From: Myxococcota bacterium
GTDB taxonomy: Bacteria; Myxococcota_A; UBA9160; PR03
Reading direction: 5' to 3'
Assembly (NCBI GenBank): GCA_030066475.1
Contig: JASJBO010000227.1
Coordinates: forward strand, 1-10,898
DNA: 10,898 nt
Shown piece after piece: positions 1 to 10,898 of this stretch. The notes under the pieces are model-generated. The model did no database searches, had not been told where the DNA came from, and saw nothing but the letters and a program-made list of their open reading frames with translations. Every line of letters begins with the position of its first letter. The stretch's first letter is position 1. The translations under genes were made by a program, and so were the position numbers.

Positions 1-660
1 GCCCTGCCCGGCGAGCTGGCGCTGCGCTGGATGGATACGTTCGGCGACAACATCTACAACTTCTACGGCTCCACCGAGGTGGCGCAGGCGTCGATCGCGA
101 TGCCCGACGAGCTGCGCTCCGCGCCCGGCACGGCCGGCCGGCCGCCGCGCGGCGTCACGGTGCGCATCCTCGACGACCAGGGGCGCGAGGTGCCGACCGG
201 CACCACCGGCCGCATCTTCGTCGCCAACGAGAACCAGTTCGACGGCTACACGGGCGGCGGCGGCAAGGAGGTGATCGACGGGCTGATGTCGAGCGGCGAC
301 GTCGGCCACTTCGACGCGAACGGCCTGCTCTTCGTCGACGGGCGCGACGACGACATGATCGTCTCCGGCGGCGAGAACGTGTTCCCGCGCGAGGTGGAGG
401 ACCTGCTCTCCGACCACGACGACGTGGTCGAAGCGTCCGTGATCGGCGTCCCGGACGACGAGTTCGGCCAGCGGCTCAAGGGCTTCGTGGTGCTCAAGGA
501 AGGCGCCTCGGCCGACGAGGCGGCGCTCAAGGACCACGTGAAGGCCAACCTGGCCCGCTACAAGGTGCCGCGCGAGATCGTCTTCCTGGACGCGCTGCCG
601 CGAAACCCGACCGGCAAGGTGCTCAAGCGGGTGCTGGTGGAGGGCGAGAAGCGCGGCTGA
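1..660 (+). CDS. Acyl-CoA synthetase (AMP-forming), C-terminal part, 5' truncated by window
   Basis: The reading frame is open from base 1, so the N-terminus lies outside the window; 219 residues remain. The visible part is the end of the large domain plus the mobile C-terminal domain of an ANL-superfamily ligase, which converts a carboxylic acid, ATP and CoA to acyl-CoA, AMP and PPi. Motif YGSTE (bases 64-78) is the adenine/acyl-binding motif A5. A SGDVGHF segment (bases 292-312) carries the ribose-binding Asp. DGRDDDMIVSGGENVFPRE (from base 337) is the hinge and A8 region. PRNPTGKVLKR near the C-terminus carries the catalytic Lys (codon at 616-618). The gene resembles long-chain or aromatic FadD-like ligases, but the N-terminal substrate pocket is not visible, so the acid cannot be named. 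It converges on the transporter gene with only 10 bp between stop codons and no visible terminator. Family call is firm; substrate unknown. Confidence 0.93.
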   Translation, partial: ALPGELALRWMDTFGDNIYNFYGSTEVAQASIAMPDELRSAPGTAGRPPRGVTVRILDDQGREVPTGTTGRIFVANENQFDGYTGGGGKEVIDGLMSSGDVGHFDANGLLFVDGRDDDMIVSGGENVFPREVEDLLSDHDDVVEASVIGVPDDEFGQRLKGFVVLKEGASADEAALKDHVKANLARYKVPREIVFLDALPRNPTGKVLKRVLVEGEKRG

Positions 661-670
661 GGTCGCGCCG

Positions 671-2884
671 CTACTCCACCCAGCCCAGCACGTTGCGGAC
701 GATCGACCAGCGCGGCTCGGTCGCCTCGGTGCCCTTGCCGCGGATCCAGTAGTCGAAGGCGCGATCGATCGTGCCGTCGCGCTGCTTGAGCGCCACCCAG
801 GTGTTGAGGAACTCGTGCGTGCGGCGGTCGTCGCGGCGGACCGCGTAGGCCAGCGGCACCTTGAGGGCGCCGGGCTTGGGGACGACCGCGGTGAAGCCCG
901 GATCCAGCAGGCTCCAGGCGGAGCCCATCTCGGCCGTGACGACGAGCGCGTCCGCGTCGACCTCGCCCTCGAAGAAGGCGCGCACGTGGGGCACGTCGAC
1001 CACCTCCGCCTCGGGCAGCGCCTCCCGGATCCAGTCGCGATAGTAGGGTGTCTTGAGCATCGCGAGCCGGATGGGTCCGAGCCGGCGGACGGACTCGCGC
1101 GAGGTGAAGTCCTCGCGCCGGAAGTCCCGCACCACGAAGGCCAGCGTGCCTTCGAGGTAGGGCGTCGAGAAGGCCATGCGCCGCGCGCGGCGCGGCGTCA
1201 CCGCATAGCCGGACATCACGATGTCGCAGGCGCCGCGGTTCAGGGCCGCCTCGAAGTCCTCGAGGGCGGTCTGGTAGAACGAGAGCGGCTGGCCGAGCTC
1301 CCGCGCCATCTCGTGGGCCATGTCGATGTCGAGGCCCACCAGCTCGCCGCGCGCGTTGACGTAGGCGAAGGGCAGCGCCTCGGGGTCGTAGCAGACGCGC
1401 AGCCCGTCACGCAGCGCGGCGGAGGGCGCGGCCGCAGGCGCCGCCGCCTCCTCCTCTTCCTCCTCGGAGCCGCCGAAGATCCTCGAGAGGAAGGAGCTGC
1501 GCGGCTTGGGCTTCGGCGGGGCCGCGGCCGCGGGCTCGTCGCCCGTGAGGACCGTGGTCTCCACCGGCGGGCCGGGGAGGCGCATCTCCATCACGGCCTG
1601 GTCCGCGTCGTAGGTCGAGCCGACGACGCGCTCCAGGAAGACGCGCGTCCCGAGCAGGCCCACCACCAGCAGCCCCACCGTCACGCCGGCGTAGCGGAGC
1701 AGGCGGGCCTTGCGCAGCTGGAGACTGCCCTGCACCGCGCAGGTCGAGAGCAGCACGAGCACGATGATCTGGATCGCCGAGAGCAGCGTCTGGAACGGCG
1801 CGATCACGACGTTGGCCGCCACGAACAGCTGGAACAGGTCGATCGGGATCCGGAGGAAGTCCATCAGGAACGGCATCGTCACCCAGATCTTCCCGAAGGC
1901 GCTGATCAGCGCCGCCGACAGGAAGCCCGGGTACTGCGCCCACGACAGGGCCGAGCCGGAGAACCAGGCCGCGAACGGGATGAAGCTCAGCGTCAGCAGC
2001 AGGCCGGTGCTCGGGAAGGTGAAGGCCACCGGCAGCACCACGTCGACGAACGTGTCGGTGTCCTCGCCCTCGAGCTCGGCGTCGGCCAGGAGCCGCTTCG
2101 AGGAGTGCGCCAGGAGCGGCAGCACGATGAACAGGTTCTGGGTCGCGAAGGCCGTGAGCAGGGCGCCGCGGCAGGTCGACAGGATCTGCCGGGTGCGGAG
2201 CGGGGTGAGCGCCGACACGAAGGCCGGCACGGCCCAGAACGTCATGATCGCCCAGGTGACCCAGTAGGTCAGGAAGTACACCCGCAGGCGGCCGAACTCC
2301 TGCGGGCTGATCGTGCCCGCCGCGTAGGCCACGATGGCGAAGATGCCGATCGGCGAGAGCTGCACGATGAGGTCCGCGACCCGGGTGAGGACGTCCTGGA
2401 ACGCGTCGAGGGGCGCGATGATGCGCTCCTTGGCCTCGAGACCGATCACCGCCACGCCGCACAGGAGACTGAAGAGCACGACGGCCGGCACGATCCCCTC
2501 GGCGAGCGAGCGGAACGGGTTCGCGGGGATGTAGAGGCTCAGGAAGTCGGTGGCCTCCGGCTCCTCCACGAGGCTCGTGCTGAAGAACGTCGCCGACTTC
2601 CAGTCGGGCAGGCCGAGCGCCATCAGGCAGAGCGTTGCCAGCGCCAGCACCCAGAAGATCGCCAGGATCAGCCCGCCCCGGCGCGCCAGCAGGCCCGCCT
2701 GCTGGTAGGTGAGCTTCCCCAGGCCCGTGATCAGCGACACCAGGATGTACGGCAGCACCGTCATCTGCATCAGCTGGATGTAGGCGTCGCCGATGGGCTG
2801 GAGGGGCGCGACCAGCTCCCCGAAGAACAGCCCGGCCGCTGCGCCGAGGCCCATCGCGATCAGGATGCGGGTGGCGAGCGACAT
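671..2884 (-). CDS. Fusion of SDF (glutamate/dicarboxylate symporter) membrane domain with family-3 periplasmic solute-binding domain
   Basis: 737 residues. Residues 1-385 are a hydrophobic multi-span region whose start (MSLATRILIAMGLGAAAGLFFG) and spacing match the DAACS/SDF symporter family. An extra hydrophobic segment follows at about 399-420, preceded by basic residues (RKARLLR), which by the positive-inside rule would put the rest outside the cytoplasm. A low-complexity Ala/Pro linker (421-490) contains six consecutive Glu (474-479). Residues 492-725 form an SBP_bac_3 domain: FAYVNARGELVGLDIDMA at its start, then TPRRAR with the probable ligand carboxylate-binding Arg566, then FSTPYLEG. 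The symporter domain lacks the usual SSS, NMDG and D-x-x-R-x-x-x-N signatures; see findings. The ATG at 2884 has only a weak purine-rich upstream sequence (GGCGCGG). The gene lies 62 bp downstream of the MhpA-like gene on the same strand and may be third in that operon. The architecture is clear; the substrate (amino acid, dicarboxylate or aromatic acid) is unknown. Confidence 0.9.
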   Translation of the reverse strand: MSLATRILIAMGLGAAAGLFFGELVAPLQPIGDAYIQLMQMTVLPYILVSLITGLGKLTYQQAGLLARRGGLILAIFWVLALATLCLMALGLPDWKSATFFSTSLVEEPEATDFLSLYIPANPFRSLAEGIVPAVVLFSLLCGVAVIGLEAKERIIAPLDAFQDVLTRVADLIVQLSPIGIFAIVAYAAGTISPQEFGRLRVYFLTYWVTWAIMTFWAVPAFVSALTPLRTRQILSTCRGALLTAFATQNLFIVLPLLAHSSKRLLADAELEGEDTDTFVDVVLPVAFTFPSTGLLLTLSFIPFAAWFSGSALSWAQYPGFLSAALISAFGKIWVTMPFLMDFLRIPIDLFQLFVAANVVIAPFQTLLSAIQIIVLVLLSTCAVQGSLQLRKARLLRYAGVTVGLLVVGLLGTRVFLERVVGSTYDADQAVMEMRLPGPPVETTVLTGDEPAAAAPPKPKPRSSFLSRIFGGSEEEEEEAAAPAAAPSAALRDGLRVCYDPEALPFAYVNARGELVGLDIDMAHEMARELGQPLSFYQTALEDFEAALNRGACDIVMSGYAVTPRRARRMAFSTPYLEGTLAFVVRDFRREDFTSRESVRRLGPIRLAMLKTPYYRDWIREALPEAEVVDVPHVRAFFEGEVDADALVVTAEMGSAWSLLDPGFTAVVPKPGALKVPLAYAVRRDDRRTHEFLNTWVALKQRDGTIDRAFDYWIRGKGTEATEPRWSIVRNVLGWVE

Positions 2885-2946: not shown

Positions 2947-4488
2947 TCACGCGGTCAGGGACAGCTTGCGTCCCAGCTCCACGAGCAGCCGGTCGAGGTC
3001 CCAGCTCTCGTCCACCACGCCGTAGAGATAGCGGTCGGGGCGCACGACGGCAGCCGGGTGCGCGTCGAACAGGCGGTCGAGCTCGCCCTCGACGATCTCG
3101 AGGTCGGCCAGGCTCACGCTCCGCCCGCCCAGGCGCTCGAGCACGGCGCGGGCCTCGGGGCCGAGCTGGAGGTCGCTCTCCTTGCGGCCCACCACCGCGA
3201 AGCCGCGCCCGAACAGCTCGTCGAGCCGGCACTCGGTGCCGTCGGGACGGCGCACCGTCGGCTGGCGCAGCAGGTGGCCCACCGCTCCCTCGCCGCCGAC
3301 CTGCTCCGCCACCAGCACCCCGTCGCGCAGCGGCGGGGCGGTGCGGCCCTGGCCGTAGCCGGCGCTCTGGTCGACCGCGGGGTGGGGGTCGGGCAGGCCC
3401 GCTTCGCGCGCCGCGAGCGTCTCCATCAGCTTGCCGACGGCCACCGCCCACTCGACCAGGTCGCGCGCGTGGGCGTCGCGCTCGGCGCCGTAGCTGTCGA
3501 GCATGCTCGCGTCGCACACACCCGCCAGCACCAGCGGGATCTTCCAGCCCAGGTTCACCGCGTCGCGGAAGCCCGCGTTCAGGCCCTGGCCCAGGAAGGG
3601 CGGGGTCTGGTGGGCGGCGTCGCCGGCCAGGAACACGCGGCCCTCGCGCCAGCGGTCGGCGGTCGCGGCGTGGAACTGGTAGACGGCGGCGCGGCGCAGC
3701 TCGTAGTGCTCGGGCGGCAGCCAGGGCTGCAGCAGCTCCTGGATCCGCTCGGGGCGCAGCATCTCCTCGCGCGTCTCGCCCTCGACGAGCTGGAACTCCC
3801 AGCGGCGATTGGGGTCCTTCACGCACACGTAGGTGGTCAGCCGCGCCGGGTCGCAGACCTGCATCGTCACCAGCGGCAGGTCGGCCTCGGGTCCCTGCAG
3901 GATGTCGATCACCAGCCAGTCCTGGTCGTAGCCGAGGCTCAGCCACTCGATGCCGACGGCGCTGCGGACGAAGCTCGAGGCGCCGTCGCAGCCGATCGCG
4001 AACGACGCGCGCAGCGTCGTCTCGGCGCCGTCCAGCGCCCGGCTGCGCACCCGCACCTCGTCGTCGTCCTGCTCGAGCGCGATGACCTCGCGTCCCAGGA
4101 AGACCTCGATGCCCTCGTAGCGCGCCACGATCTCACGCAGCAGCGCCTCGAGCTCGGGCTGGTCGAAGAAGGCCATGTCGCGCCAGCCCAGCGCGCCGAC
4201 CCGCGGGAACTCCATCCCGAACAGCTTCTCGCGCTTCGAGTTGGTGAAGCAGACCTCGTCCACCTCGCGGGGCGGCTGGAGGATCGCGGCCACCGTCTCC
4301 GCGAGCCCGATGCGCTGGAACGCGCGCATCGACTCGCCGTCGAGGCCCACCGCGCGCGGCAGCTCGACCGGATCGGGCGAGCGCTCGAGGATCGCGACCC
4401 GCAGCCCCGCCTCCGCCAGCAGGATCGCGGTCAGGGCGCCCACCGGTCCGTAGCCCGCGATGGCGACGTCGTACTCGCTCCGGCTCAT
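2947..4488 (-). CDS. MhpA-like FAD-dependent aromatic hydroxylase
   Basis: 513 residues from the chosen start. This is a class A flavoprotein monooxygenase, close in layout to 3-(3-hydroxyphenyl)propionate hydroxylase MhpA: NAD(P)H and O2 are used to add an ortho hydroxyl to a phenolic ring, giving a catechol. The dinucleotide fold is at the N-terminus (G12-Y-G14-P-V-G17). The MhpA-like PRAVGLDGESMR segment follows at 44-55, then the FAD/NADPH DG motif (C167-D168-G169), the GD motif (G289-D290-AAHQTPPFLGQGLNAGFRDAVNLGWK), and a thioredoxin-like C-terminal region ending in RPDRYLYGV (483-491). An ATG at 4503 would add five residues. The ATG at 4488 is preferred because it forms an ATGA overlap with the upstream dioxygenase stop, typical of translational coupling, and matches the MhpA N-terminus. 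No strong Shine-Dalgarno sequence is seen. The next gene is an extradiol dioxygenase, consistent with sequential hydroxylation and ring cleavage. The exact phenolic substrate is unknown. Confidence 0.92.
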   Translation of the reverse strand: MSRSEYDVAIAGYGPVGALTAILLAEAGLRVAILERSPDPVELPRAVGLDGESMRAFQRIGLAETVAAILQPPREVDEVCFTNSKREKLFGMEFPRVGALGWRDMAFFDQPELEALLREIVARYEGIEVFLGREVIALEQDDDEVRVRSRALDGAETTLRASFAIGCDGASSFVRSAVGIEWLSLGYDQDWLVIDILQGPEADLPLVTMQVCDPARLTTYVCVKDPNRRWEFQLVEGETREEMLRPERIQELLQPWLPPEHYELRRAAVYQFHAATADRWREGRVFLAGDAAHQTPPFLGQGLNAGFRDAVNLGWKIPLVLAGVCDASMLDSYGAERDAHARDLVEWAVAVGKLMETLAAREAGLPDPHPAVDQSAGYGQGRTAPPLRDGVLVAEQVGGEGAVGHLLRQPTVRRPDGTECRLDELFGRGFAVVGRKESDLQLGPEARAVLERLGGRSVSLADLEIVEGELDRLFDAHPAAVVRPDRYLYGVVDESWDLDRLLVELGRKLSLTA

Positions 4489-5393
4489 CCCATCCGACCC
4501 CACTGCGTGCCCAGGGCGACCTGGGGCGTGAAGCGGCCCGGCTCAGCGCTGGCGTCGAGCAGGTCGCCGTCGGTGAAGTGCTCGACCACGTGGCCCCACG
4601 GGTCGCGCCAGTAATCGTACACCTGCGAGCCCAGCACGTGGCGCCCCACGCCCATGGCGTGGTCCCAGCCGGCGCCCGCCAGGTGCTCGTTGCCGCACAT
4701 CACGGCGTCGAAGTCCTGCACCTCGAAGGCGGCGTGGTCGAAGGCCGGCTCGCCGGTGCCGATGCACAGGAAGGTGTGGTGATCGACGTGGACCGGTCCC
4801 CGGTCGCAGCGCATGAAGGCGGTGATGGCGGGGCCGTCGTCGCCGAGCACGATCTCGTCGGAGACCAGGAAGCCGAAGTGCGACCGGTACCAGTCCTTGC
4901 TGCGCGCGAAGTCCGACACGCGGACTACGGCGTGGCCCAGGCGCTTCACCTGGGCGGGGCCCTTCGGCACGCGCTGGAGGCGCCCGAGGCGGCGCTGATC
5001 GTCGCCGAGGTTGAGGGGCAGGGCGCCCCGCACCGGGATCGCCTCGAGCGGCGCGCGGCCGTGCACCACCTCGACCGAGAAGCCGTCGGGATCGGTGAGG
5101 CGTACGCGCGAGCCGCCGCCGGGCCCGTCGAGGGCCTCGATGTCGGAGGCGCCCTCCATCTTGGCCGCCGTCTCCAGGTCCTCGGCCGAGGCGGCGTCGA
5201 AGCCCACGCCCCGGAAGCCGGCCGCGCCGCGCACCGTCTGGTGGATCCACGGCGACGGATCGGACCCGCGCGCATACAGGACCCCCTCGTCGCGCTCGTG
5301 CACCACGAGGCCGAAGTCCTCCAGGAAGCTCTGCATGCGGGCCAGGTCGGGCGCCGCGAAGCGCACGAAGGCAACGTCGGTGACCTTGATCAT
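4485..5393 (-). CDS. Two-domain type I extradiol ring-cleavage dioxygenase (VOC superfamily)
   Basis: 302 residues with two tandem VOC (glyoxalase/bleomycin-type) halves, about 1-115 and 150-285, the layout of BphC/HsaC-like catechol dioxygenases. These use Fe(II) and O2 to cleave a catechol next to its hydroxyls (meta cleavage). By-eye alignment to BphC places the metal ligands at H154 (LGHAVV), H220 (FDHAAF) and E271 (VVEHF), and second-shell residues at H205, H252 (GRH) and Y261. The H-Y-E spacing at the end (252, 261, 271) equals that of BphC. The PROSITE-style signature GRH...YWRDPWGHVVE is complete except for Asp at one hydrophobic position. The catalytic set is in the C-terminal half, as expected. 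The start is supported by GGAGGAG (5398-5404), 4 nt before the ATG. It is the first gene of the minus-strand operon, behind the 5445-5472 promoter. Other VOC functions are less likely given the full ligand set. Substrate unknown. Confidence 0.9.
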   Translation of the reverse strand: MIKVTDVAFVRFAAPDLARMQSFLEDFGLVVHERDEGVLYARGSDPSPWIHQTVRGAAGFRGVGFDAASAEDLETAAKMEGASDIEALDGPGGGSRVRLTDPDGFSVEVVHGRAPLEAIPVRGALPLNLGDDQRRLGRLQRVPKGPAQVKRLGHAVVRVSDFARSKDWYRSHFGFLVSDEIVLGDDGPAITAFMRCDRGPVHVDHHTFLCIGTGEPAFDHAAFEVQDFDAVMCGNEHLAGAGWDHAMGVGRHVLGSQVYDYWRDPWGHVVEHFTDGDLLDASAEPGRFTPQVALGTQWGRMG

Positions 5394-5419: not shown

Positions 5420-5464
5420 GGTTTAGTCAGGCGAATAAGCGCGGATTATACACATGACTAAACC
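5420..5464. promoter_or_regulatory. 45-bp imperfect palindrome, probable shared operator between divergent operons
   Basis: The outer arms GGTTTAGTCA (5420-5429) and TGACTAAACC (5455-5464) are perfect 10-bp inverted repeats. The symmetry continues inward around the same centre (base 5442), including ATAA/TTAT at 5435-5438 and 5446-5449. In total 17 of 22 base pairs are symmetric. The dyad covers the minus-strand -10 element and the ATG of the plus-strand gene at 5454. Position and symmetry fit the binding site of a dimeric or tetrameric repressor. No regulator gene is present in the window, so the family that binds it (TetR, MarR, GntR or other) cannot be named. Confidence 0.7.
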
Positions 5465-5472
5465 GGGCGCAA
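5445..5472 (-). promoter_or_regulatory. Sigma70-like promoter for the dioxygenase operon
   Basis: On the minus strand a perfect TATAAT (bases 5450-5445) is preceded, with a 16-bp spacer, by TTGCGC (5472-5467), which matches the -35 consensus at its first three bases. This is a rare AT-rich patch in very GC-rich DNA. Transcription would start near 5438, leaving a leader of about 45 nt before the ATG at 5393, with GGAGGAG just upstream of it. The -10 lies inside the 45-bp dyad, so a bound regulator would block it. Confidence 0.65.
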
Positions 5473-6545
5473 GCGCTCGTGCGGCTATGCTCAAGGCCCT
5501 CGTGAGGACCTTGATCGAGGGCTATCGGATCTTCCCCGGCGAGCACTGTGGCAGCGTCGCCATGCGCGGGCTGCTGAGCCACTACTGCGGTCTGGAGCTG
5601 CCGGAGAGCGCCGTCTTCGGCCTCGGCGCGGGCGTCGAGTGCCTCTACCTCGCGGGCCCCGCGATCGACCCGCCGCGCCTCGTCTTCGGGCGCACGGCCA
5701 CGCTGGAGGTCGACGTCGGCGCGGCGCTCCAGGTGGACTACCGCGAGCAGACCGAGGACGACGACGCCCGCGCCTGGCAGGTCGTGCGCGACGAGGTGCT
5801 CGCCGGGCGGCCCACGATGCTGAGCGGCGACATCCTCTATCTCGACTACCGCGAGTACAAGGTCCACTTCCCGGGACACCGCTTCGTGTTGCTGGGCTTC
5901 GACGACGCGACCGAGCGCGCCTTCATCGCGGACCGCATCCGGCCCGAGCCGGAGGCGTGCTCGTACGCGGCGCTGGCGCGGAGCCGCAACCCGCCCGAGG
6001 GCATGTCGACGCGCAATCTGTGGGGGCGCTTCCACGGCGTCGAGCCCGGCCGCTCGCTGCCCGACGCCGCGCGCTGGGCGATCGGGCGCTGCGCCCGGAG
6101 CATGCTGGGGAGCGACGGCGGCGACGAGGCGATCGACTTCGGCGCGGGGACGACGGCCACGCGCGGGGTCGCGGCGATCCGACGGCTGGCGGAGGAGCTG
6201 CCGACCTGGGGCGTGCGCGAGGACGCCGGCTGGATCGCCAGCTACAACGCGCGCTGCATCGAGAAGTTCGGCAACGGCGGGGGCAACTTCCGGCGCCTGT
6301 ACGCCGGCTTCCTGAGCTGGGCGCGCGAGCTCGAGGCCGCGCTCGTGCCCGCCTCGGCGCCGGCGCTCGCCACCCGTGCCGCAGACGGCTGGACGGCCGC
6401 CTCGGCGGCCTTGGGCGCGGCGGGCGAGAGCGGCGCCCAGGCCGCCGGGTGGCGCGAGGCGGCCGCGCGCCTGGCGGAGGTGGCCGAGGTCGAGCGCGAG
6501 CTGTTCGAGCGCCTGGGCGAGGCGGCCGCTGGAGGCGCGGACTGA
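5454..6545 (+). CDS. BtrH_N / DUF4872 domain protein (putative papain-like acyltransferase or peptidase)
   Basis: 363 residues. The N-terminal half resembles the BtrH_N domain, named for the butirosin enzyme BtrH, which moves an acyl group from a carrier protein to an aminoglycoside. The signature FPGEHCGS has C32 after H31, followed by a GLGAG turn (57-61). VHFPGHRFVLLGFD gives H142 and the strand ending FIAD gives D160; C32-H142-D160 fits a papain-like catalytic triad. The C-terminal half matches DUF4872, with IEKFGNGGGNFRRLYAGFL at 269-287 as its usual hallmark. No signal peptide or membrane segment is seen, so it is probably cytoplasmic. The ATG at 5454 has no Shine-Dalgarno sequence and lies inside the operator dyad, so the message may be leaderless; the only other in-frame ATG, at 5487, also lacks one. 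It is divergent from the aromatic operon and overlaps the next gene as CTGA. The reaction is unknown; a carrier-protein partner is not visible nearby. Confidence 0.82.
   Translation: MTKPGASARAAMLKALVRTLIEGYRIFPGEHCGSVAMRGLLSHYCGLELPESAVFGLGAGVECLYLAGPAIDPPRLVFGRTATLEVDVGAALQVDYREQTEDDDARAWQVVRDEVLAGRPTMLSGDILYLDYREYKVHFPGHRFVLLGFDDATERAFIADRIRPEPEACSYAALARSRNPPEGMSTRNLWGRFHGVEPGRSLPDAARWAIGRCARSMLGSDGGDEAIDFGAGTTATRGVAAIRRLAEELPTWGVREDAGWIASYNARCIEKFGNGGGNFRRLYAGFLSWARELEAALVPASAPALATRAADGWTAASAALGAAGESGAQAAGWREAAARLAEVAEVERELFERLGEAAAGGAD
6531..6535 (+). promoter_or_regulatory. Ribosome binding site that supports a CTG start at 6542
   Basis: GGAGG lies 6 nt before the CTG at 6542-6544, the ideal spacing. 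No ATG, GTG or TTG in the correct frame lies close enough to this site to produce the lipoprotein signal peptide. The site is inside the last codons of the BtrH_N/DUF4872 gene, fitting translational coupling. Confidence 0.6.
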
Positions 6546-8302
6546 GCGGGCTGCGCGCGAGCGTCGCTGCCCTCGTGCTGGCGGCGTGCTCCGGGGCCAC
6601 CGAGAGCGGCCAGCTCGCGCTGCGCATCGTCGACGCCGCGACCGGCGAGCCGGTGCCGGCGCGCGTCGAGCTGCTCGATGCCACCGGCGCGCCCGTGGTG
6701 CCGGTCCCGGCGCTGCGGCTCGACTTCGAGTGCGTGGCGGCGCCGCTGCCCGACTGGCTGATCGGCCTGACCCGCTCCGACCGCATCGAGAACCGCCACA
6801 CCGGCACCACGCAGTTCTACCTGGCCGGACCGGCCGAGTTCGCGCTGCCGGCCGGCCGCCACCGGCTGCGCGTGTTCCGCGGCATCGAGACCGAGGTGGT
6901 GGAGCGCGAGCTCGAGATCGAGGCGGGGGCGCACCTCGCGCTGGAGGTCGCGCTGTACCGCTGGGCCGACGAGGCGGCGCGCGGCTGGTACTCGGTCGAC
7001 GATCACCTGCACATCACGCGACTCACGCCGGAGGACGACCGCCGCATCGCGCACTGGATGCGCGCCGAGGACCTGCGCGTGGCGAACCTGCTCCAGATGG
7101 GCACGGTCGACCAGCTGAGCGTCACGCCCCAGCACGACTTCGGCGACGCCGGCGCCTTCCGCGACGCCGACACCCTGCTGCTGGCCGGCCAGGAGCATCC
7201 GCGCACCCACTTCCTGGGCCACACCATCACGCTGGGCGCCGCCGCGCCGATCGACCTGCGCGACACCTACATCGTGTACGAGCGCTTCTGGGCCGAGTCG
7301 CGCCGGCTCGGCGGGGTCTCGGGCTTCGCGCACTTCGGGATCGGCGCGAACGCGCGCGACGGCCTGGCGATCGACGCGCCGCGCGGCGGGATCTCGTTCC
7401 TCGAGGTGCTCCAGTTCGAGTGGGCGCACTACGACGTCTGGTACGGGCTGCTCGACCTGGGGCTGCGCATCACGCCGACGGCCGGGACGGACTTCCCGTG
7501 CGGGATGTGGAGCCTGCCGGGGCGCGAGCGCTTCTACGCGCGCATCGACGGGCCGGTGACGCGCGCCTCGTTCGTCGAGGCCGTGCGCGCCGGACGCACG
7601 TTCGTGACCAACGGGCCGCTCCTCGAGCTCCGGATCGACGACGCCGGGATCGGCGACACGCTCCGGCTCGAGGCGCCCGCCAGCGTCACGATCCGCGCGC
7701 GCGTGCGCTTCGACCCCGCGCGCGACGACGTGCGCCGCGTGGAGGTGCTCCGCAACGGCGTCCCGATCGAGGCGCCGCCCGAGCGGCTCGGGCCCGGCGA
7801 GCTCCGCATCGAGGCGGCGCACCGAGCGGACGCCTCGGCCTGGTACGCGCTGCGCGTGACGGGGGACAAGGTGGGCGAGGCGCCGCTCGACGAGGCGCTG
7901 CTGACCGATTGGCAGTGGGACCTCGTGGCGGACCGGATCACCACCTTCCGCGAGCAGGAGGACCTGCGCGAGGCGGACGCCGCCGCGCGCGGCCGCGTAC
8001 GCGCGTCGGCGGCGCACACGGCCGCCGTCTGGGTCGAGGTGGCCGGGACGCCGCCGCTCGCCGCCCGCCCCGAGGCGGCCGAGCGCGCGCGGGCCGCGCT
8101 CGACCGCCTGGACGACCTCGAGTCCCGGCTGGCCGACGATCGCCTGGACGATCAGACGATCTGGGACTGGCTCCCCTACAGCGACGGCGTCCCGGCCGAG
8201 CACCTGCGGCGCAACCGCGCCGCGCTGCTCGAAGCCATCGCCGATGCCCGCCGTCGCTATCGGGCCGTCGTCGCTCAGAGGCAGTCGATCGACGGGGTGT
8301 AG
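6542..8302 (+). CDS. CehA/McbA-family metallohydrolase (PHP superfamily), lipoprotein
   Basis: 586 residues from an inferred CTG start; the frame also runs open far upstream inside the preceding gene, but that part is not expected to be coding. The N-terminus MSGLRASVAALVLAAC is a short type II signal with lipobox L13-A-A-C16, so the protein should be lipid-anchored outside the cytoplasm. A small beta-rich domain (about 24-140, starting LALRIVDAATGEPVPARV) resembles carboxypeptidase-regulatory folds. The PHP-type catalytic core runs from about 145 to 360: DDHLH (D153, D154, H155, H157), GQEHP (E218, H219), FAHFG (H264) and TAGTDFP (D317) are probable metal ligands. FVEAVRAGRTFVTNGPLL (344-361) is the family hallmark. 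A beta domain and an acidic/Arg-rich helical tail follow. Known members hydrolyse carbamates such as carbaryl, but most are uncharacterised, so the substrate here is unknown. It overlaps the upstream stop by 4 nt and the convergent hydrolase gene by 28 nt. Confidence 0.87.
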   Translation: MSGLRASVAALVLAACSGATESGQLALRIVDAATGEPVPARVELLDATGAPVVPVPALRLDFECVAAPLPDWLIGLTRSDRIENRHTGTTQFYLAGPAEFALPAGRHRLRVFRGIETEVVERELEIEAGAHLALEVALYRWADEAARGWYSVDDHLHITRLTPEDDRRIAHWMRAEDLRVANLLQMGTVDQLSVTPQHDFGDAGAFRDADTLLLAGQEHPRTHFLGHTITLGAAAPIDLRDTYIVYERFWAESRRLGGVSGFAHFGIGANARDGLAIDAPRGGISFLEVLQFEWAHYDVWYGLLDLGLRITPTAGTDFPCGMWSLPGRERFYARIDGPVTRASFVEAVRAGRTFVTNGPLLELRIDDAGIGDTLRLEAPASVTIRARVRFDPARDDVRRVEVLRNGVPIEAPPERLGPGELRIEAAHRADASAWYALRVTGDKVGEAPLDEALLTDWQWDLVADRITTFREQEDLREADAAARGRVRASAAHTAAVWVEVAGTPPLAARPEAAERARAALDRLDDLESRLADDRLDDQTIWDWLPYSDGVPAEHLRRNRAALLEAIADARRRYRAVVAQRQSIDGV

Positions 8303-9657
8303 CCCGGCGCCGCGCCGGTCAGGTCCGCCTGCACGTCCACCGTCGCCCCCACGCCGCTCACCCAGTTCGAGAGCAGGTCGTGGAAGGTGAGGCCGGTGCC
8401 GCCGTCGGTGGTGGTCTGGGCGAAGCCCGGGCCGTGGATCATCACGTGCCCGTTGCACTGCGGGCCGAAGGCGCCCGAGCCGACCGGCAGGTTGCCGAAC
8501 TCGGCGGCGGTCGCGATGGCGAACGCCTCGGGATCGGCGTAGAGCCCCCAGGCCGTGACGAAGCGGTCCATGTGCAGGTGGTCGGTGAGGTCGGAGCGCA
8601 CGAACACCGGCGTCGTGATCTCGTTGAGCACCGTGTAGATCGGGTCCATGCAGTAGTAGGCGGCCACGCCCGAGGCCAGGCACGACTCGTCGAGCGCGCT
8701 GGTCGGCGTCTCCCAGAAGTCGTGGCGCGGCTGCACGTAGTTGAGGCCCATGTCGGCGTAGTCGATCGGGCTCGCGGGCGGGTTCCAGACCGTGGCCGCG
8801 GTGTGCAGCGACGGCGAGAGACCGGCGTCCAGCACGCCCAGCACCTCGACGCCGGCGGGGTTGCGGTTGTTGGCGAGCAGGTCGTCCGCGATCCGGTCGA
8901 GGTGGAACTTCAGGTTGTTGTTGCCGGCCGAGTCGCCCGAGAGGATCACGGTGCCCGCGTCGCGCAGGTCGGGCAGCGCCTCGTCGTAGTACTGCTGCCG
9001 CGGCCGCGGGTCGGGCCAGGTGACGCCGTCCTGGAGCGTGCGGATCAGGTCCTCGACGATCGCGTCGCCGCGGAACTCGATCTTGTAGTCCACGCCGTAG
9101 GCCGGCGACGTCACGACCTTCGGACCCGCCCCGCCGGTGCCCGAGTCGGACGACAGGTAGGCCAGATGCACGTGGTTGTAGCCGGCGAAGTCGTTCAGCG
9201 GGTTGAGCGCCAGCATCCCGTCGGGATGGTCGATCGCGCTGGGCGCCCCGAGCGAGCTCATCTTGCCCGCGACGTCGAACACCTGCGTTCCGAGACTGCA
9301 GAAGCGCTCGAGGCAGTCGTCGGCGTCGGCGCAGGAGCCGCCGCCCTCGAAGTGGATCACCCACTTGTCCTCGTCCGGCGAGCCCGGCACCGCCGGGCGC
9401 ACGTAGGCGATGGCGGGCGAGCCGTCGTTGGCGTGCGACTCGGGGCCGCGCAGCGTGAGCTTCAGCAGCGGCCGGTCGGCGCCCGGCCCGGCCGCGGGCA
9501 TGCGGATGCCGTAGTTCGGCTGCCCGGCGCCGAGGTCGAGGCAGAGCTGCGGCTCGAGCTTGCGGACGGGCGAGCCGGGACAGGCCGCCGCCAGCAGCGG
9601 AAGCGCGAGCAGGGCCGTGAGAGCGACGCGGAGTCGAATCGGGTCGAAGCGGAACAT
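8275..9657 (-). CDS. Pectin acetylesterase / Notum-like serine hydrolase, lipoprotein
   Basis: 460 residues. The hydrophobic N-terminus after FRFDPIRLR ends in LLAAAC (C26), a plausible though imperfect lipobox (Ala at -3), so a surface or periplasmic lipoprotein is expected. The fold signature is the alpha/beta hydrolase family that includes plant pectin acetylesterases and animal Notum, which remove O-acyl groups. KWVIHFEGGGSC (98-109) matches the WLIYLEGGGWC oxyanion-hole segment. YNHVHLAYLSSD (160-171) follows it. S243 in GDSAGNNN is the nucleophile, D277 (VLDAGL) the acid, and H404 in CNGH the base, matching the family C-x-x-H motif. The usual GCSAGG around the Ser is changed to GDSAGN. 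The frame stays open upstream to 10020, but the start at 9657 is chosen because GAGGAG (9665-9670) lies 7 nt before it and the signal peptide begins there. Substrate unknown; polysaccharide or lipid ester is possible. Confidence 0.85.
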   Translation of the reverse strand: MFRFDPIRLRVALTALLALPLLAAACPGSPVRKLEPQLCLDLGAGQPNYGIRMPAAGPGADRPLLKLTLRGPESHANDGSPAIAYVRPAVPGSPDEDKWVIHFEGGGSCADADDCLERFCSLGTQVFDVAGKMSSLGAPSAIDHPDGMLALNPLNDFAGYNHVHLAYLSSDSGTGGAGPKVVTSPAYGVDYKIEFRGDAIVEDLIRTLQDGVTWPDPRPRQQYYDEALPDLRDAGTVILSGDSAGNNNLKFHLDRIADDLLANNRNPAGVEVLGVLDAGLSPSLHTAATVWNPPASPIDYADMGLNYVQPRHDFWETPTSALDESCLASGVAAYYCMDPIYTVLNEITTPVFVRSDLTDHLHMDRFVTAWGLYADPEAFAIATAAEFGNLPVGSGAFGPQCNGHVMIHGPGFAQTTTDGGTGLTFHDLLSNWVSGVGATVDVQADLTGAAPGYTPSIDCL

Positions 9658-9664
9658 CGGGGTT

Positions 9665-9670
9665 CTCCTC
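9665..9670 (-). promoter_or_regulatory. Ribosome binding site fixing the start at 9657
   Basis: On the minus strand GAGGAG lies 7 nt before the ATG at 9657-9655. It decides against the much longer open frame that runs on to 10020 and would overlap the divergent gene at 9954. Confidence 0.75.
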
Positions 9671-9709
9671 GTCCCGCGGGGTTCGAGTCGCTCCCCGGCG
9701 CGGGACGGC

Positions 9710-9740
9710 CTTGCGGGAGCTGCCCGGCTCCCAGGGCAAG
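9710..9740. repeat. Bulged inverted repeat (11-bp stem)
   Basis: CTTGC-GGGAGC (9710-9720) pairs with GCTCCC (9727-9732) and GCAAG (9736-9740). The loop is TGCCCG, with a three-base AGG bulge on one side. It lies 53 bp upstream of the esterase ATG and could form a stem in that gene's 5' leader or be a protein-binding dyad. There is no T-run after it on either strand, so it is not a standard terminator. Confidence 0.5.
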
Positions 9741-9823
9741 CGCCGTACCAGACCGGCGCGCAGTCCGGCCTCGGCCCGATTCCTTGCGCTTTCGCGGAGT
9801 TGCCGGCGCGTTCGCCCATCGGG

Positions 9824-9902
9824 CTGCCGTCGGCAGACGCGGTCGGCGCGCGTCGCGCGTTGACGGCAGCAACGGATCGTTGCCGGTTTCGCTCCGATCG
9901 GA
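9824..9902. repeat. Cluster of three short perfect dyads
   Basis: CTGCCG-T-CGGCAG (9824-9836), GCAACG-GAT-CGTTGC (9869-9883) and the 10-bp palindrome TCCGATCGGA (9893-9902) lie within 79 bp upstream of the plus-strand gene at 9954. They could be operator sites. Short palindromes are common by chance in GC-rich DNA, so the support is modest. Confidence 0.35.
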
Positions 9903-9953
9903 ACGCCGTTCGGTGTAGTATCGTCCGTCGACGTTGCGCCGCCGGAGGCCTCC

Positions 9954-10898
9954 ATGCGGGATCGCGTCCCTCTCGTGTCGAAGGTCCTTCTCGTCGCCGC
10001 CTGTGTGACCTTCGTCTCACTGGCCGAGTCGGTGCGCGCCGAGCCGCCGCCCGAGACCACGGTGCAGGGACGGCTGCTCGACCCCGCGGGCAATCCCCGC
10101 GTCGGCCCGGTGGACATGCGGGTCCGGATCTTCGGGAGCCCCGCTCCGGCCAGCGGCGAGCCGACCCTCTACGAGGAGGAGCACCTCGGCGTGGCGCTCG
10201 TCGACGGCATCTTCGACCTCGCGCTCGGTGCCGGCAGCCCGCTGGTCGGGACGTTCGAGGCGGGCCTGTTCGCGGAGGCGAACCGCTACGTCGAGTTCGT
10301 CGTGAACGGCGAGACCCTGAGCCCGCGCCAGCCGCTCGGCTCCGTCCCGTTCGCCCTCCAGGCGTCGAACGCGCAGCGCTTCGGTGGCCTCACGCCCGAC
10401 GAGTTCGTCGAGGACGCGATCGGGGGCCCTGCGGGCAGTCCGCTGGCGGTCCATCTCTTCCGCGACTCCGGCGACCTCCAGTACATCGTGCCGAGCGGCA
10501 AGACGCTGCTCGTCGAGCAGGTCCTGTTCAGTGAGGCCTGGGAGACCCGCGGCGATCCCCTGGAGCTGTACGTCCATCACTCGATCAGCCCGGGCGGGAC
10601 GATCTGGACGACGGCGCACCGCTTCTTCTCCGTCGTCAACACGCTCCCGAATCCCCTGGTGATCCCCGCAGGCCGGGCGGTGGGAGTCCCGTCCCGAACA
10701 CCGGCCGACGCCAGCCAGAAGGCCTTCCTCTACGGCCGACTCCTGGACGCGACGGACCCGACCCGGGTCGTGATCGAGATCCCCCGGGACGGGGAGGGCG
10801 GCGGGAACCGCTACCGGGTGCCGAGCGGCAAGAGCCTCATCGTGGAGCACATCATGTTCAACCAGTGGTGGGAGCGGAGCGGCGAGCCCATGGAGCTG
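9954..10898 (+). CDS. Exported protein with 110-residue repeats, 3' end beyond the window
   Basis: The frame is open to the last base: 315 residues are visible and no stop is reached. The start ATG is 5 nt after GGAGG (9944-9948). Residues 1-29 form a Sec signal with a hydrophobic core at 11-24 and a likely cut after V-R-A29. A VAAC at 14-17 could be read as a lipobox, but its hydrophobic core would be too short. Residues 37-120 form a beta-rich domain (VQGRLLDPAGNP, then a YEEEHLGVALVDGIFDLALG strand pair). SPRQPLGSVPFALQASNAQRFGG (123-145) is a linker of a type often seen in secreted fibre-like proteins of myxobacteria and relatives. Two copies of a domain beginning Y-x-VPSGK follow, at 177 and 287. 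No enzyme motif is recognised; a surface or structural role is a guess. It is divergent from the esterase gene. Confidence 0.85.
   Translation, partial: MRDRVPLVSKVLLVAACVTFVSLAESVRAEPPPETTVQGRLLDPAGNPRVGPVDMRVRIFGSPAPASGEPTLYEEEHLGVALVDGIFDLALGAGSPLVGTFEAGLFAEANRYVEFVVNGETLSPRQPLGSVPFALQASNAQRFGGLTPDEFVEDAIGGPAGSPLAVHLFRDSGDLQYIVPSGKTLLVEQVLFSEAWETRGDPLELYVHHSISPGGTIWTTAHRFFSVVNTLPNPLVIPAGRAVGVPSRTPADASQKAFLYGRLLDATDPTRVVIEIPRDGEGGGNRYRVPSGKSLIVEHIMFNQWWERSGEPMEL
10482..10568 (+). repeat. Protein-level direct repeat, copy 1
   Basis: Encodes 29 residues (177-205) starting YIVPSGKTLLVEQVLF and ending DPLEL. It aligns without gaps to copy 2, with 16 of 29 residues identical, including PSGK, VE, F, WE, G, P and EL. 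The copies start 330 bp apart (110 residues), so each belongs to a larger repeated domain. Confidence 0.8.
10812..10898 (+). repeat. Protein-level direct repeat, copy 2 (cut by window end)
   Basis: Encodes residues 287-315, starting YRVPSGKSLIVEHIMF and ending EPMEL at the last base. It is the same conserved block as copy 1; the remainder of this repeat domain lies beyond the window. Confidence 0.8.

Follow-up and report, generated by a model that had tools for sequence, protein, structure and literature searches.

Two copies of a TetR-type 16-bp operator, centred 23 bp apart, very probably form the control region of a minus-strand operon that encodes a VOC-type extradiol dioxygenase and an FAD-dependent aromatic hydroxylase in the window (the whole 10,898-nucleotide stretch of Myxococcota DNA analysed here). 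Both are dyads of the form 6-4-6. Operator A (TTAGTC-AGGC-GAATAA, positions 5423–5438, plus strand) lies just downstream of the predicted −10 element of the VOC-direction promoter, at about the expected transcription start, while operator B (TTAGTC-ATGT-GTATAA, positions 5446–5461, minus strand) has its right half-site over that −10 box. Operator and predicted core promoter thus overlap. The two sites score 24.4 and 25.1 bits, respectively, against a matrix derived from relatives, and each has the 16-bp dyad form of a TetR-regulon operator. Sites, spacing, placement in the promoter and recurrence before the TetR, FAH, VOC and FAD genes of relatives are direct observations, and together they add a further case to a well-known type of control.

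The region had caught the eye of a sequence-only reading as a single large concentric palindrome (5420–5464), through which one regulator would repress two divergent operons. Its description of the DNA was accurate. The perfect 10-bp arms are there (GGTTTAGTCA, 5420–5429; TGACTAAACC, 5455–5464), 17 of 22 concentric positions pair, and the dyad holds both a minus-strand TATAAT (5450–5445) and a plus-strand ATG (5454–5456). The window has no second copy of TTTAGTCA, even with one mismatch allowed, and no regulator gene. The 45 bp consist of operators A and B plus flanks, with 19-nucleotide arms that are 84% complementary. By itself this symmetry is only mildly unusual and is weak evidence: a 45-mer with at least 17 of 22 pairs is present in 50 of 500 windows simulated with a first-order Markov model, and perfect 10-bp arms with a loop of up to 40 nucleotides occur 3.3 times per simulated Markov window. 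Arms as AT-rich as these (at most four G or C) are rare, appearing in 1 of 300 simulations. The idea of one large operator gave way to two 16-bp operators, units that keep their form in relatives while whole-pair symmetry and spacing vary. Any palindrome that is present twice creates a concentric dyad, which accounts for the form first noticed; what looks like one striking large palindrome can be a small operator repeated.

The matrix is symmetrised; 15 related loci supplied its 27 sites, and the window was excluded. When 25 non-duplicate loci (duplicates L106, L107, L109, L118, L122 and L124 removed) were scanned with a loose consensus, 29 matches came back, 27 of them (15 loci) before genes of the set; the other two (L110 2915 and L121 1967) were left out as off-target. 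Because the window was in view when the consensus was first drafted, sites discovered later in new sequence carry more weight. Training sites score 17.6–31.9 bits, a range that includes both sites of the window, in which the third-best score is 1.8 bits. None of 1,000 Markov-simulated windows reached 24.4 bits. The 17-bit line applied below was drawn after the scores were known, 17.6 bits being the lowest training score. Relatives' promoters carry AT-rich 6-4-6 dyads of the same kind (for example, TTATACAACCGTATAA, TTATTCGATTGTATAA and TTAGTCGGGTGTATAA). Searches of the open-licence literature found neither the motif nor the regulon; among them, a literal motif search, a weak test, returned no paper.

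Pairing recurs with a narrow geometry. Ten training loci hold 11 pairs with centres 20–23 bp apart (L001, L003 twice, L004, L005, L006, L114, L115, L119, L120 and L123), and the 23-bp spacing of the window is matched in L114, L119, L120 and L123; five of the 15 training loci have one site only. These arrangements bear on whether another kind of regulator might read the entire 45-bp symmetry as one site, a reading we consider very unlikely. The outer arms do reach 2 bp past the operators (GG/CC) and are perfect over 10 bp. Relatives, however, keep 16-bp units at spacings of 20–23 bp, with whole-pair symmetry that ranges from 8/19 to 17/19 across pairs (14/19 in the window, for the two operators alone), and lone units occur, for example in L002, L117 and L127. 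In 90 genomes, a search for the dyad that required exact 9-bp arms around a gap of 12–38 bp found nothing. That the symmetry is mere chance, or a DNA or RNA hairpin with no regulatory role, is scarcely credible: the simulated frequency of 17/22 pairing speaks for it, but two matches to a window-free matrix, at a recurrent spacing and promoter position, speak against it.

The predicted minus-strand promoter combines a −35 element, CTTGCG (5468–5473), with a −10 element, TATAAT (5445–5450), 17 bp away and at a position conserved in relatives. Read along the minus strand, CTTGCGCCCGGT-TTAGTCATGTGTATAAT presents the −35 element, followed by operator B over the −10 element and operator A at the expected start. 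A generic sigma-70 scan reported no promoter on either strand of the window. The combined module CTTGC-N7/8-TTANNCNNNNGTATAA, matched in the window at 5473–5446, is present in 12 of the 79 genomes of a related Myxococcota order (that of genome G002, locus L002), and its reversed control in none; 377 genomes drawn from the phylum gave the same 12 places, with one match to the control. The operator of each of the 12 promoters is placed as operator B is in the window. Behind the module lie genes for TetR (five: L131, L132, L133, L137 and L141), FAH (two: L134 and L136), VOC (one: L135), FAD hydroxylase (two: L138 and L139, 60% identical to that of the window) and SDR (two: L130 by Pfam, L140 by eye). 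Both enzyme families of the window operon therefore directly follow this promoter elsewhere. A second site follows 21–30 bp on in eight of the 12 modules, two of these being weak (14.5 and 11.6 bits); the other four have no second site of at least 8 bits.

Scanning genomes with an alignment of 25 VOC sequences yielded at least 80 loci of VOC relatives. The best six (L001–L006) encode VOC proteins 62–69% identical to that of the window and are titled Myxococcota (three), Deltaproteobacteria (two) and uncultured bacterium (one). Among the best 120 of 3,655 VOC homologues, five of the six that name an organism are Myxococcota or Myxococcales. The metagenomic homologues P0001–P0003 are 76–98% identical. 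Within the related order, 25 of the 79 genomes have a VOC match at E 1e-100 or better, and a site of at least 17 bits accompanies 21 of these 25 VOC loci (20 at 17.6 bits); for Markov copies of the same 25 loci, 0.7 sites are expected in all. The 21 site-bearing loci divide into 12 with pairs 20–23 bp apart, one with a pair at 30 bp (L151) and eight with a single site. Sites typically stand before TetR, FAH or VOC genes. Near VOC, 14 of the 25 loci have a TetR match, 14 an FAH match and ten an FAD hydroxylase match; TetR-FAH-VOC is a frequent order. Three of the regulators (L003, L119 and L137) score above cut-off for both TetR_N and TetR_C_29. The family is named as the candidate because it is encoded beside VOC in those 14 of 25 relatives. 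The proposal of a regulator therefore stood as far as a regulator-binding region overlapping the VOC-operon promoter, and gained a family name; the single large operator did not stand.

Conservation is incomplete. Three of 24 informative VOC loci have no site (G061, G023 and G036; a further one, G067, ends inside TetR), and siteless G023 and G036, which argue against full conservation, still have FAH together with a partial TetR match. Ten upstream regions were obtained after matrix training. Four of them hold new-sequence sites of at least 17 bits (L142, L144, L150 and L151), with pairs in L142 (21 bp, about 930 bp before TetR), L144 (21 bp) and L151 (30 bp); L150 has a 23.5-bit site and a second of 9.6 bits at 21 bp. 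Single sites in L145 and L146 (18.2 and 17.2 bits) were missed by the loose consensus; as their stretches are already part of L110 and L116, they do not count as new-sequence sites. L147, L148 and L149 have no site in their upstream regions, and L143 ends inside TetR. At the far edge of the window, an acyl-CoA ligase fragment (1–660, plus strand) is 91% identical to L002 1790–2431, where it also lies a few kilobases from VOC; the VOC-side neighbourhood is thus partly conserved.

Binding, repression, the inducer and the transcription start are features that we infer from these sequences. Two TetR-family dimers would occupy the same face of the DNA, 23 bp being about two helical turns, with operator B filled between the −35 and −10 elements, overlapping the −10 box, and operator A filled over the expected start. 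The bound dimers would block RNA polymerase and so repress the hydroxylase/dioxygenase operon, until an aromatic substrate or a ring-cleavage product released the repressor. Its gene would lie elsewhere in this genome and act from outside the window. Such a scheme would give the aromatic ring-cleavage regulon of one Myxococcota order a candidate operator, promoter and regulator family, and the matrix can be used to seek the missing regulator and further targets in the source genome.

Among known systems, a TetR dimer is described as binding a 15-bp palindrome and QacR, as a tetramer, 28 bp, and about 60% of the mycobacterial regulators are said to face a divergent gene (both in PMC4482099). 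On that account, TetR and QacR likewise use short palindromic operators; the window differs in having two separate 16-bp sites 23 bp apart. RolR of Corynebacterium glutamicum, presented in PMC3086911 as a TetR-type regulator of resorcinol catabolism, gives a precedent for TetR-type control of aromatic catabolism, in a different host and on a different operon. DarR binds DNA as a dimer of dimers, according to PMC10636190; its sites, as described there, overlap each other, whereas the centres in the window are about two helical turns apart.

The first gene of the operon encodes the VOC protein (4485–5393, minus strand; Pfam PF00903, with the HpaD model below its cut-off). Its best solved chains by profile are 3b59, then catechol and homoprotocatechuate 2,3-dioxygenases. 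Across 25 sequences, residues H154, H220 and E271 do not vary; by homology they would be the His-His-Glu iron ligands. The MhpA-like FAD-dependent aromatic hydroxylase (2947–4503, minus strand) overlaps the end of the VOC gene and scores 493 bits against NF004829 (cut-off 390). The VOC and FAD proteins of the window and the FAH proteins of relatives resemble enzymes of the HpaD, MhpA and HpaG type, VOC and FAH falling below the equivalog cut-offs. A possible third gene (671–2884, minus strand) follows behind the hydroxylase gene, encoding an unusual-looking 737-residue fusion of a sodium:dicarboxylate symporter (SDF, PF00375) and a periplasmic-type SBP_bac_3 domain (PF00497).

On the plus strand, the divergent gene encodes BtrH_N and DUF4872 domains (PF14399 and PF16169) and runs from 5487, or from 5454, to 6545. 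The upstream ATG (5454) is an unlikely start, because there is an in-frame ATG at 5487 and orthologues align from residues 3–7 of the shorter form. Behind it comes a CehA/McbA-family metallohydrolase (6542–8302, plus strand; NF038032, 181 bits, cut-off 80), with a putative start codon. Judged by eye, that start seems to be a CTG at 6542 that overlaps the stop codon of BtrH (as CTGA); GGAGG stands immediately upstream, and a lipoprotein-like signal follows. This arrangement (6531–6545) suggests translational coupling. Further along are a pectinacetylesterase-family protein (8275–10020, minus strand) and a protein (9954–10898, plus strand) with a weak resemblance to a Bdellovibrio mosaic fibre model (48 bits against a cut-off of 60).

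The pair might also act as a shared bidirectional switch, the same TetR repressor controlling VOC/FAD together with BtrH/CehA as a recruited member of the ring-cleavage regulon; we hold this to be less likely than not. The gap between VOC and ATG 5487 measures just 93 bp, with the pair in its middle, and any BtrH promoter located in it would overlap the pair; by eye, a weak plus-strand TAGTCA-N17-TATACA (8 of 12 consensus bases) does lie across the pair, and in L137 and L151 pairs stand between divergent FAH and TetR genes. We also found a 15.1-bit site, TAATCCGATTGATCAA, 48 bp before the BtrH match in the closely related loci L087 (1180–1195) and L088 (2581–2596), with 0.3 expected in the set; it is the best score of any BtrH locus and keeps a BtrH link possible. 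L101 adds an 11.4-bit dyad 15 bp before its BtrH match. Against a shared switch, sites of at least 17 bits occur in none of 24 BtrH loci and none of seven CehA loci (best CehA score, 7.2). BtrH is present at 1e-60 or better in 23 of the 79 genomes of the order, and VOC and BtrH are never neighbours in the loci examined, where the flanks covered are about 1.5 kb for BtrH and 1.5–6 kb for VOC, shorter where a contig ends. In L003, moreover, a second pair belongs to the divergent gene, as if each promoter had one pair. The first proposal, one regulator for both operons, is thus supported on the VOC side, and the tie to BtrH/CehA was not established.

The same absence of a VOC/BtrH pair from all loci examined would also arise if the divergent arrangement were an assembly joint, the operator belonging to VOC and BtrH being no true neighbour. 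This we rate as highly improbable, the intergenic sequence showing by eye no direct sign of a joint. Steric repression in both directions is plausible, because the pair sits midway in the 93-bp gap and relatives' pairs lie between divergent FAH and TetR genes. An effect on the BtrH/CehA operon is possible but more probably incidental. It is also conceivable, if unlikely, that a detached branch of the aromatic ring-cleavage regulon, its TetR encoded elsewhere, captured the BtrH/CehA operon through one operator pair. With such a capture, a single inducer might govern a route in which the BtrH-type enzyme and the CehA-type hydrolase supply phenolic substrates to the hydroxylase/dioxygenase pathway. 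Control of the VOC/FAD operon by paired TetR-type operators is the reading we prefer.

Beyond the order, we scanned the 74 further VOC loci (L007–L080), none of which is titled Myxococcota. The matrix found 12 sites of at least 17 bits in eight of them, compared with 7.3 sites in 6.5 loci expected from simulation. These counts exceed expectation by little, and in AT-rich DNA the matrix by itself therefore lacks specificity; we make no cross-phylum claim from them. A strict 6-4-6 scan gave near sites in three of the 74 loci and no pairs, with looser pairs visible by eye (for example, in L007). The AGTCA/TGACT half-site, as oriented before the TetR/VOC genes of Parvibaculum and other alphaproteobacteria (TTGACTAAATAGTCAA), was tried as a candidate and rejected: by eye, the window has it in the opposite order and without a matching partner.

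Several observations stand beside these scans. In alphaproteobacterial loci another 6-4-6 dyad, TTGACTAAATAGTCAA, TTGACTAAAAAGTCAA or TTGACCAAATGGTCAA, stands before TetR or VOC genes (L007 5281, L034 5922 and L049 5967). The second operator pair of L003 (4258–4295) faces a divergent gene that is acyltransferase-like by eye, a possible extra member of the regulon. Pairs of the window's motif, 31 bp apart, adjoin TetR/VOC genes in L044 (5927/5958) and L039 (4258/4289), from metagenome-assembled genomes titled Proteobacteria and Actinomycetes, and the spacings of 20–23 and 30–31 bp fit two and three helical turns.
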